Below are positions 1,753 to 7,446 of a DNA stretch of 43,812 bases, in pieces. The notes beneath the pieces were generated by a model that had not been told where the DNA came from, did not search any database, and was given only the letters and a program-made list of their open reading frames with translations. The position numbers were made by a program, and so were the translations under genes. Source of the stretch: Oceanospirillaceae bacterium (GTDB taxonomy: Bacteria; Pseudomonadota; Gammaproteobacteria; Pseudomonadales; Balneatricaceae); assembly GCA_002686055.1 (NCBI GenBank), contig NYZU01000009.1:12392-56203 (forward strand), in the 5' to 3' direction. The first letter of the stretch is position 1. Each line of letters begins with the position of its first letter.

Positions 1753-2847
1753 CTAGGCTCCAGCGTTATAGAACGCCTGCTCGTCTTCGGCACTCTGCAA
1801 AGCGTGTTCAATGGCGCCAACATGGGCTTCATCAGAAACATCTTCACGTTTTTCGGGACGAATACCCAATTTTTCAAATAAGCGCCGGTCTTTGGTCGCC
1901 GTTGGGTTATCCGTGGTTAATAGGCGGTCACCGTAGAAAATAGAATTCGCGCCAGCCATAAAACATAGGGCCTGCATCTGCTCATTCATTTCTTCCCGCC
2001 CAGCCGATAAGCGCACATGGGATTGAGGCATCAGAATACGTGCCACCGCAATGGTACGAACAAAGTCAAAAGGCTCTAGATCATCAACTTGATCTAGAGG
2101 TGTACCCTCAACTTTAACCAACATATTAATGGGCACACTTTCTGGGTGAATTGGCATATTGGCTAATTGTTGCAATAAGCCTACACGATCACGTAAATTC
2201 TCACCCATACCCACGATACCACCAGCACAAACTTTCATGCCGGCATCACGCACATTAGTCAAAGTATCGAGGCGATCCTGATAGGTACGAGTGGTGATAA
2301 TACTGCTATAAAATTCTGGCGAAGTATCCAAATTATGATTGTAGTAATCTAAACCGGCATCGGCTAATTGCTGAGCCTGATCATTATCTAGCATACCCAA
2401 AGTCATACAGGTTTCTAAGCCCATGGCTTTAACTTCACGCACCATTTCTAGCACATAGGGCATATCTTTGGCACGGGGGTTTTTCCAAGCTGCCCCCATA
2501 CAGAAGCGACTGGCACCAGCAGCTTTCGCAGCCTCAGCTTCTGCCAGTACTTCTTTTACTTTCATTAAGCGTTCAACTTCCAAACCAGTATCATAGCGCG
2601 CACTTTGTGGGCAGTATTTACAATCCTCTGGGCAAGCGCCGGTTTTGATCGACAAGAGGGTACTAACTTGCACTTCGTTAGGGTCAAAATGTTGACGATG
2701 CACGGTCTGGGCACGAAATAGCAAATCATTAAATGGCATGGCAAACAAGTCGGTAATTTCCTGTACTTGCCAGTCGTTACGCAGGCTAGTCTGGCCTTTA
2801 ACGCCATCTGCACTATACTGATTAACAGAGGATTGAGCGGTGAGCAT
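1753..2847 (-). CDS. bioB: BioB, biotin synthase
   Basis: Radical SAM enzyme that inserts sulfur into dethiobiotin, the last step of biotin synthesis. The 364-residue protein carries the [4Fe-4S] motif as C72, C76 and C79 (ACPEDCKYC), followed by family blocks such as [20 protein letters not shown] and [15 protein letters not shown]. The N-terminus is some 20 residues longer than the E. coli enzyme before the cysteine motif, which is common in this lineage. The ATG at 2847 has AAGGA about 8 bases upstream, so the start is well supported. It is the first gene of the minus-strand bio operon; its promoter overlaps a BirA box (2897-2928), so repression by biotin-loaded BirA is likely. Confidence 0.98.
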
Positions 2848-2875
2848 AAAACAGTTCCTTAATATGGATGTTTGA

Positions 2876-2903
2876 ATGATAGAGCCACCCCCTGCTTAGT
2901 CAA
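2876..2903 (-). promoter_or_regulatory. Probable sigma-70 promoter of the bioBFH operon
   Basis: On the minus strand a -35 TTGACT (2903-2898) and a -10 TATCAT (2881-2876) are separated by 16 bases, ending about 28 bases before the bioB ATG. The -35 lies inside the left half of the BirA box, so binding of the repressor would block polymerase. The boxes are read by eye; the start site is not measured. Confidence 0.6.
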
Positions 2904-2928
2904 CCTGAAAACTAAGGATGGTTTACAT
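2897..2928. promoter_or_regulatory. BirA (biotin repressor) operator
   Basis: The arms TAGTCAACC (2897-2905) and GGTTTACAT (2920-2928) are separated by 14 bases. The known BirA operator of proteobacteria is TTGTnAACC, 14-16 bases, GGTTnACAA, so each arm differs at a single position. Its place between bioB and comF, over the bioB -35 box, is exactly where such an operator is expected. The right arm also covers the comF ribosome-binding region and the first base or two of its start codon. Confidence 0.87.
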
Positions 2929-3664
2929 GTGGTCAATGTTTAACCAATTAAAAGCTATTTTTGCCCCCCCGTGCCTACTTTGTGGCAGCTTAGATGGCAA
3001 TCTGGATAACTACTGTCAGGGCTGTTACGACGACCTACCCCATAATGTCTATTGCTGTCAGATCTGTGCCATACCCTTTCATCAAGCATTTGGCACACAA
3101 CTAATCTGTGGTGTGTGTCTGCGCCAACCACCTAAGTTTAATCAAAGCCTTGTGGCTCTGCACTATTTGCCGCCCATTAGTGGCTTGGTGCATGCTTTTA
3201 AAGATAATAATGATCAGGCGGCTGGGCGGCTACTTAGTGCTTGTTTATTGGCCTATATCGAAGCGCAAAGGCCCGCTCTACCAGACGTCCTTATTCCCAT
3301 GCCTTTGCATCGCCAACGTTTATTAAGTAGAGGCTTTAATCAAGCAGAGGTAATGGCACAACGACTGGGTAAGGCCTTAGGAATTCCCTGCCATAACGAC
3401 CTTTGTCAGCGCCAAATCGATACCCCCAGTCAACAAGGGCTAGATAAGCAACAACGGCAGCGTAATCTAAGCAACGCCTTTGTCGTCAACCAAACCATTA
3501 CCAAGTTTCGGCATATTGCCATTATTGATGATGTTATTACCACTGGTGCCAGTGTTAATTTGCTTAGCCAAGCCCTGCGTCAGGCTAGCCCCCAGCCACT
3601 TTGCATTGAAGCTTGGTGTGTGGCTAGAACCTTGCCTCCCCAAAGCAAATTGCATCTCTACTAA
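2927..3664 (+). CDS. comF: ComF family phosphoribosyltransferase-like protein
   Basis: ComF/GntX family protein, linked in other bacteria to DNA uptake and use of external DNA, although the exact reaction is unsettled. The N-terminus has a four-cysteine zinc finger (C16, C19, C30, C33 from the start used here) with two more CxxC pairs after it, and the C-terminus has the phosphoribosyltransferase PRPP loop IAIIDDVITTGASV. The ATG at 2927 is preferred to the one at 2918 because TAAGGA lies 8-9 bases before it but touches the earlier one. It diverges from bioB, an arrangement also known in Pseudomonas. Its stop overlaps the convergent oxidoreductase stop (TAA and TAG share bases at 3661-3664). 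The BirA box sits on its start region. Confidence 0.9.
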   Translation: MWSMFNQLKAIFAPPCLLCGSLDGNLDNYCQGCYDDLPHNVYCCQICAIPFHQAFGTQLICGVCLRQPPKFNQSLVALHYLPPISGLVHAFKDNNDQAAGRLLSACLLAYIEAQRPALPDVLIPMPLHRQRLLSRGFNQAEVMAQRLGKALGIPCHNDLCQRQIDTPSQQGLDKQQRQRNLSNAFVVNQTITKFRHIAIIDDVITTGASVNLLSQALRQASPQPLCIEAWCVARTLPPQSKLHLY

Positions 3665-6156: not shown

Positions 6157-7446
6157 ATGAATAGCCAACAACTTATTGCCCTTGATCAGGCTCATGTCTG
6201 GCACCCCTACTCCAGTATGGATAACCCTCCACCTGCTTATCCCGTAGCCAGTGCTGAAGGTGTGCGCCTAAAGCTAACTGATGGTACTGAACTAATTGAT
6301 GGTATGGCCTCTTGGTGGTGCGCTATACATGGCTATAACCATCCCCACCTAAACCAAGCCATGCAATCGCAAATAGCGGATATGTCCCATGTTATGTTTG
6401 GTGGTATTACCCATGCACCAGCCGTTACCTTGGCCAAACGCCTAGTCGATATCACCCCACTAGGCCTAGAAAAAGTGTTTTTTAGTGACTCTGGCTCCGT
6501 AGCTGTGGAAGTAGCCATTAAAATGGCATTGCAATATTGGCATGCACGCGGACAAGCTGGCAAAGACCGTTTACTCACTGTACGCAATGGCTACCATGGT
6601 GATACCTTTGGCGCCATGGCGGTATGTGACCCCGTAAATGGGATGCACACTTTATTTAAGGGTGTATTACCGCAACATTATTTCTGTCCTGCACCTCCTG
6701 CTGGCTTTGATCGCCCTTTGGCTGATAGCGACCTAGACGAACTAGAAGCACAACTAAAGGCCAACCACAAAAATATAGCAGGGCTTATATTAGAACCCAT
6801 CGTGCAAGGTGCTGGTGGTATGCGCTTCTATAGCCCTGCATGGTTAACGGCAGCAGCGGCTCTATGTAAACAATATGATGTGTTACTGATTGCTGATGAA
6901 ATAGCCACCGGCTTTGGTCGTAGTGGCGCCCTGTTTGCTTGTGACCATGCCCAAGTTCAACCCGATATTATGTGCCTTGGTAAAGCCATAACTGGTGGCA
7001 CCATGAGCTTTGCTGCCACCCTCACCACCAGTCATATTGCTACTACCATTTCCCGGGGCGAGGCCAATTGTTTTATGCATGGCCCAACCTTTATGGGTAA
7101 CCCCTTGGCCTGCGCGGTCGCCAACGCTAGCTTGGATTTGTTAGAAGCAAATGACTGGCAAGCACAAGTCCAAGGTATCGAACAAGGCTTACAGCAACAT
7201 CTGGCGCCGGCTGCTGCCCAAAGCTATGTAGAAGATGTGCGCGTAATGGGTGCCATTGGCGTAGTGCAAGTAAAGGAAGCAGTAGATTTAGCCCGTATAC
7301 AAAAGTTGTTGGTTGCGGAAGGGGTTTGGGTAAGGCCCTTTGGCAAGCTGGTGTATGTGATGCCGCCCTATGTCACCTCTGCCGAAGATTTAAAACAACT
7401 TTGCGAAGGTATGTTACGCGCTTTAGAGGCCTATTTTTCTGCCTAG
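6157..7446 (+). CDS. bioA: BioA, adenosylmethionine-8-amino-7-oxononanoate aminotransferase
   Basis: Class III PLP aminotransferase that makes 7,8-diaminopelargonate using SAM as amino donor. The chosen ATG at 6157 gives 429 residues and has GGAA 6 bases upstream; an in-frame TTG at 6136 would add seven residues and is unlikely. Visible signs are WHPYSSM at residues 15-21 and WWCAIHGYNHP at 53-63 (both typical of BioA substrate binding), the ADEIATGFGR cofactor motif at 246-255, the PLP lysine at about K276 in CLGKAITGG, and HGPTFMGNPL. It lies about 3.3 kb from the bioBFH operon on the other strand and is transcribed alone; it does not carry an obvious BirA site. Confidence 0.97.
   Translation: MNSQQLIALDQAHVWHPYSSMDNPPPAYPVASAEGVRLKLTDGTELIDGMASWWCAIHGYNHPHLNQAMQSQIADMSHVMFGGITHAPAVTLAKRLVDITPLGLEKVFFSDSGSVAVEVAIKMALQYWHARGQAGKDRLLTVRNGYHGDTFGAMAVCDPVNGMHTLFKGVLPQHYFCPAPPAGFDRPLADSDLDELEAQLKANHKNIAGLILEPIVQGAGGMRFYSPAWLTAAAALCKQYDVLLIADEIATGFGRSGALFACDHAQVQPDIMCLGKAITGGTMSFAATLTTSHIATTISRGEANCFMHGPTFMGNPLACAVANASLDLLEANDWQAQVQGIEQGLQQHLAPAAAQSYVEDVRVMGAIGVVQVKEAVDLARIQKLLVAEGVWVRPFGKLVYVMPPYVTSAEDLKQLCEGMLRALEAYFSA

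Follow-up and report, generated by a model that had tools for sequence, protein, structure and literature searches.

The divergent gap between bioB and comF in the window, which is the whole stretch of DNA analysed (43,812 nucleotides), contains an inverted repeat that is almost certainly the BirA operator of the bioB operon. As BirA sites of biotin operons go, the operator itself is ordinary and of a known kind. The new aspect is the position of its second half, which was found in the initiation region or the first codons of a functionally different neighbour across much of the order. We consider it likely that the site is a BirA operator with a widespread and constrained overlap with comF. 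BirA control of comF is plausible.

The bioB–comF gap of the window

The gap is flanked by the bioB start at 2847 on the minus strand and the comF start at 2927 on the plus strand. The bioB gene (1753–2847, minus strand) encodes a biotin synthase with Radical_SAM and BATS domains. The comF gene (2927–3664, plus strand) encodes 245 aa from the ATG at 2927, and its reading frame opens at an ATG at 2918. The comF product matched DZR_2 above the cut-off and Pribosyltran with 21.3 bits, under the cut-off of 26.3 for that model, and it carries the PRT motif DDVITTGAS. Both the zinc ribbon and the phosphoribosyltransferase domain that define ComF/ComFC are thus found in the window protein. A ComEC-like gene (PF03772) is present in the window's genome. 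Compared by ComF, the closest named record is an assembly of 'Oceanospirillaceae bacterium isolate UBA8291' with 98% identity, which would put the window in the Gammaproteobacteria. The in-frame ATG at 2918–2920 lies within the Shine-Dalgarno sequence of comF, and it occurs in just two of the 15 genomes of the genus, the window and its near-copy L130.

A consensus scan placed the bioB −35 box TTGACT at 2898–2903 and the −10 box TATCAT at 2876–2881, 16 nt apart on the minus strand. This was the only sigma70-like promoter that the scan found in 2200–3000, a range in which shuffled sequences gave a mean of 1.7 promoters (0.4 for a 251-base stretch). By consensus, no sigma70 promoter for comF was found on the plus strand upstream of the gene in the window or in genus locus L005. 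The Shine-Dalgarno-like sequence of comF, AAGGATGG, lies at 2914–2921 on the plus strand, with a predicted duplex energy of −9.4 kcal/mol against a typed 16S tail.

The BirA-type inverted repeat comprises the left, bioB-proximal half-site TAGTCAACC at 2897–2905, a spacer of 14 nt at 2906–2919 and the right, comF-side half-site GGTTTACAT at 2920–2928, both arms being read on the plus strand. The bioB −35 box falls within the left arm; the right arm overlaps the end of the Shine-Dalgarno sequence and reaches two bases into the comF start codon. An earlier note on this DNA had described near-perfect arms 14 bases apart that lie over the bioB −35 box and run into the Shine-Dalgarno sequence and start of comF. 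The sequence confirmed this arrangement; the term near-perfect suits the core bases and is less apt for the outer ones. The window site (genus g1) matched all 12 positions of the core GTnAACC/GGTTnAC. E. coli bioO reads TTGTAAACC-N16-GGTTTACAA in NC_000913.3, and the window arms (locus L004) were identical to it at 15 of 18 positions, whereas shuffles of the window gap (mononucleotide, 20 per locus) reached a mean of 11.1 and a maximum of 12.

E. coli bioO lies between bioA and bioB and is regulated by BirA (PMC5438404). The window site resembles bioO in its inverted GTnAACC/GGTTnAC arms and in its place in a divergent gap upstream of bioB. The two differ in the spacer, which is 14 nt in the window, 14–16 nt in the order loci scoring at least 10 and 16 nt in E. 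coli. They also differ in the partner gene, which is comF in the window and the biotin gene bioA in E. coli, and in that an arm of the window site touches a start codon.

A loose BirA pattern gave 1 site in the 1.44 Mb genome and the reversed pattern gave 3, so the motif alone is not rare and the significance of the site comes from its place and its conservation. A chance motif was rejected on the placement and on conservation above the shuffles, although the loose pattern is not rare. The pattern scan of the genome (a 72% complete assembly) showed no second BirA target elsewhere. A bioA-like class-III aminotransferase gene lies apart from bioB at window positions 6157–7446, where the BirA pattern gave no site.

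BirA and the conservation of the operator

Gammaproteobacterial BirA regulons of biotin genes have been reconstructed by comparative genomics, and such regulons are described as absent where the DNA-binding domain of BirA has been lost (PMC5343134). The window's genome encodes a BirA of 329 aa (G000:C35) with an N-terminal helix-turn-helix (HTH), as the earlier note had required of this genome. The protein matched birA_ligase over the cut-off. Its HTH matched birA_repr_reg with an E-value of 2.4e-15 and 56.9 bits, below the curated cut-off of 70 bits, which was exceeded in only 18 of the 99 family genomes. The BirA match extended into the N-terminal part in 97 of the 99 family genomes, and the HTH model was matched in 98, one of them weakly. 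A BirA without a DNA-binding domain was therefore rejected for the window genome and for 97 of the 99 family genomes. One family genome (G023) has two BirA-like genes (C62, 335 aa; C32, 320 aa) with an HTH match in both. Because almost all BirA proteins of the family have the N-terminal part, a negative control was not available within the family and was sought among class genomes.

The family set of 99 genomes includes four without bioB, which leaves 95 loci, 84 of them outside the window's genus. A divergent comF faces bioB in all 95. The sequence GTCAAC at the −35 box, which served as the anchor, was also found in all 95. The TTGAC of the −35 box follows from the GTCAA of the anchor; in 82 of the 84 family genomes outside the genus the box ends in A. 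A −10 box TAnnAT with the same spacing as in the window was present in 91 of 95. Within the window's genus, the right arm matched 6/6 core bases in all 11 genomes and is also carried by 4 further genomes of the genus; both arms are present in 15 of 15, two of which are one base short in the left arm. Sequence comparison thus showed conserved arms around a drifting spacer in relatives; conservation of the arms was a check on the operator that the earlier note had named.

Across the family, the arm distal to bioB matched 5–6 of 6 core bases in 42 of the 95 genomes, compared with 1.1% at other comF positions, and 4 or fewer in 53. Five genera (g6, g8, g11, g12 and g15) keep the AC of the distal arm and have largely lost GGTT (2–4/6 core bases), and apart from AC their distal arm hardly exceeds chance. 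In genera g2, g3, g4, g7 and g16 the distal arm is mixed. The HTH of BirA is retained in the genera with a decayed or mixed distal arm. There are three possibilities: BirA tolerates the decayed arm, the site is a weaker one, or the AC has another function.

At the level of the order, a search gave a match in 221 of 244 genomes. From the matches listed, 76 loci were chosen by hand, with at least one for each of 33 other families and with the weakest matches left out. Each order and class locus was represented by its highest-scoring site within about 430 nt, over spacers of 13–17. The operator upstream of bioB scored at least 10/12 in 72 of these 76 loci, at least 11 in 67 and 12 in 46. In 63 of the 76 loci the observed score was unreached by any of 30 mononucleotide shuffles per locus, and in 13 it was reached. 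A divergent comF was present in 66 of the 76. Where comF was not found upstream of bioB, an operator scoring at least 11 was kept in 9 of 10 loci. Since operators persist without comF, the site does not owe its presence to comF, and the operator serves bioB.

The class set comprised 40 loci out of 67 genomes with a bioB match among 71 chosen. Eleven of these genomes have a BirA match that starts at residue 59 or later; the criteria for their lack of the HTH were the BLAST range and short reading frames, rather than the HTH model, and one of them (L231) is represented by a 498-base stretch. The 29 genomes with the HTH were picked among the BirA proteins most similar to that of the window. Sites scoring at least 11 were found in 0 of 11 genomes without the HTH and in 11 of 29 with it (Fisher p 0.019, kinship ignored). 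For sites scoring at least 10, the counts were 1 of 11 and 19 of 29 (p 0.003, kinship ignored). The lineages whose BirA has no DNA-binding domain are thus a natural control, which is confounded by kinship because the 29 HTH genomes carry the BirA proteins closest to that of the window. A comF gene was near bioB in only 2 of the 11 genomes without the HTH, about 530 nt away, so this control bears on the operator and not on the overlap. Ten of the 29 HTH genomes scored 9 or less; the bioB and comF matches lie more than 500 nt apart in six of these and not in the other four. At eight class loci (L229, L230, L239, L240, L241, L242, L248 and L260) the bioB and comF matches are about 530–675 nt apart and no site scoring at least 10 was seen; something may lie between the two genes there.

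The overlap with comF

The position of the comF start was compared in the 63 order loci with comF and an operator scoring at least 10. An in-frame ATG or GTG lies inside the operator in 30 of them, only upstream of it in 12 and within 20 nt downstream of it in 9; in the remaining 12 it lies further away or none was found. If the start is used in the 12 loci where it lies only upstream, the entire operator is comF coding sequence. The comF start thus shifts between families from tens of nucleotides upstream of the operator to beyond it, as expected if bioB holds the operator in place. It is bioB that keeps the operator where it is, and comF has had to accommodate it. An in-frame comF ATG upstream of the operator was seen in L162 and L163 (f20), L190 and L191 (f38) and L171 (f27). 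In f20 and f38 this ATG sits at the bioB −10 box, so that the entire operator and the bioB −35 box would be coding.

Outside the window's genus, an ATG was found exactly 8 nt from the start of GTCAAC in 79 of the 84 family genomes. This ATG is inside the operator spacer, so comF would begin there and the distal arm would fall on codons 6–7. In 77 of the 79 genomes no stop interrupts the frame within 50 codons of this ATG; L083 and L091 are the two without an open frame. The comF start lies elsewhere in the window's genus and in the single genome of g9, namely at the outer end of the distal arm.

Codon 7 was read only in the 79 of 84 genomes with the ATG at the fixed place. It is AAC in 59, TAC in 12, GAC in 6 and CAC in 1, that is, NAC in 78 of 79. 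In the rest of comF, 1134 of 2393 codons for the same amino acids (Asn, Tyr, Asp and His) end in C (47%). With one draw per genus, the chance of NAC at codon 7 is about 4e-5. Control codons showed C:T splits of 13:11 (codon 4), 27:11 (codon 8) and 27:22 (codon 13). A constraint on the amino acid was rejected as the reason for the fixed AC, since the residue switches among Asn, Tyr, Asp and His whereas the third base remains C. Codon usage thus shows a DNA-level constraint on the first codons of comF, where the BirA arm should be. Even without an effect of biotin on comF, this is a clean case in which a repressor site constrains the codons of a neighbour family-wide, with a variable amino acid and a fixed wobble base.

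The codon after the right arm, just past GGTTTAC, is ATG in 8 of the 15 genomes of the window's genus and ATC in 7 (L008, L009, L010, L013, L014, L132 and L133). GGAGG lies five nucleotides upstream of the ATC in 6 of the 7. Between the in-frame stop and the ATC there are 4–9 sense codons, with no ATG, GTG, TTG or CTG among them in 5 of the 7; L014 has a GTG and L133 a CTG. The ATC is followed by Trp-Ser in 5 of the 7, by Cys-Ser in L010 and by Trp-Leu in L133. The predicted Shine-Dalgarno duplexes of the ATC genomes are −12.8, −12.8, −12.6, −12.6, −10.5, −7.0 and −13.3 kcal/mol, the value of −7.0 belonging to L132, whose comF frame has 129 codons only. Those of the ATG genomes are weaker, at −9.4 to −3.7 kcal/mol (Mann-Whitney p 0.009, kinship ignored).

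For comF in two pairs of ATC genomes, dN was 0.07 and dS 0.491 (L008/L009), and dN was 0.133 and dS 0.691 (L013/L014), with dS undefined or saturated in 4 of the 8 comF pairs compared. Since dN is well under dS in these pairs, comF is under purifying selection. The ComF alignment (A1) used 26 of the 34 listed ComF references. On the bioB tree, two changes between ATG and ATC are needed, and the well-supported branches alone force only one. Judged from these sequences, the simplest reading is that comF of the ATC genomes has a real AUC start, which would be backed by a strong Shine-Dalgarno sequence.

Biotin, BirA and comF expression

By analogy with E. coli, when biotin is plentiful a BirA-biotinyl-AMP dimer would occupy both half-sites, cover the bioB −35 box and turn bioB off. 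As comF starts on the operator, a comF transcript coming from the bioB side would have to cross it. A dimer bound over the comF initiation region would probably lower comF transcription, either by occlusion or as an elongation roadblock. The C-protein of Kpn2I is a precedent for a bound regulator that acts as a roadblock to transcription elongation (PMC6237814). That case concerns the autoregulation of a restriction-modification system, unlike a vitamin repressor acting on a neighbour (PMC6237814).

A divergent linkage of a biotin gene with comFC is known from comFC/gntX–bioH (PMC5438404). It differs from the bioB–comF pair of the window in that bioH of E. coli is described as outside BirA control, and the parts of that source used here mention no operator overlap (PMC5438404). 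The main text of the reconstruction of BirA regulons does not mention comF (PMC5343134). The literature searched, some of it available in part, gave no report of a BirA site on comF; a 2002 paper on the BirA regulatory signal might mention one. Transformation of Helicobacter pylori requires ComFC (PMC9005727). Should biotin act on comF, DNA uptake in many environmental bacteria would be linked to a vitamin repressor.

A measurable effect of biotin on comF is possible, if somewhat doubtful, and a physiologically meaningful link of biotin to DNA uptake is unlikely. We also think it rather unlikely that holo-BirA co-represses comF in many gammaproteobacteria, such that replete biotin would lower and starvation would raise the amount of this DNA-uptake protein, with a site in the comF start region order-wide and one genus tuned by a weak AUC and a stronger Shine-Dalgarno sequence. 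The chances seem evenly balanced that the overlap is incidental. In that case the operator would control bioB only, comF would be expressed at a low and constant level from a promoter that BirA does not noticeably hinder, and the overlap would persist since a compact divergent gap is hard to open without harming one of the genes. An incidental overlap agrees with the operators retained at nine of the ten order loci without comF, with the comF start that moves between families over 63 order loci (30, 12, 9 and 12 in the four positions above) and with the wide spacing of the bioB and comF matches at 8 of the 40 class loci. However, the close arrangement recurs in most of the sampled order loci, as the 66 of 76 with a divergent comF show, and a dimer bound on the start region of a gene would be hard to make neutral.

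Two further explanations concern the conserved bases themselves. The conserved part might be mainly the bioB −35 box plus an unrelated constraint on the N-terminus of comF, the second arm being part of an operator only in the window's genus and in a few more. We hold this to be very improbable. The invariant GTCAAC of the left arm is what a −35 box would show, and five genera show a decayed distal arm, but codon 7 remains NAC in 34 of the 35 genomes of these genera, the exception being L083, which has no open frame from the ATG at the fixed place. The frequency of distal arms with 5–6 matching bases relative to other comF positions also speaks against it, as does the lack of any site scoring at least 11 in the 11 class genomes whose BirA match is without the HTH. 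The BirA operator with a constrained overlap is the reading that we prefer here.

It is also quite improbable that another regulator acts in part of the family through the inverted repeat GACAG-N6-CTGTC, which spans the Shine-Dalgarno sequence of comF and the bioB −35 box. GACAG (at least 4/5 at this position) occurs in 61 of the 84 family genomes outside the window's genus; against this, the repeat was not seen in the window's genus and GACAG was absent (0) from g5, g9, g11, g13 and g14. One of its arms is the fixed −35 box, so the pairing can scarcely be assessed, and the repeat may be leader sequence. GACAG-N6-CTGTC was observed in g2, g4, g6, g7, g8, g10, g12, g15, g16 and one g3, with the comF Shine-Dalgarno sequence in the loop and part of the bioB −35 box in the right arm.
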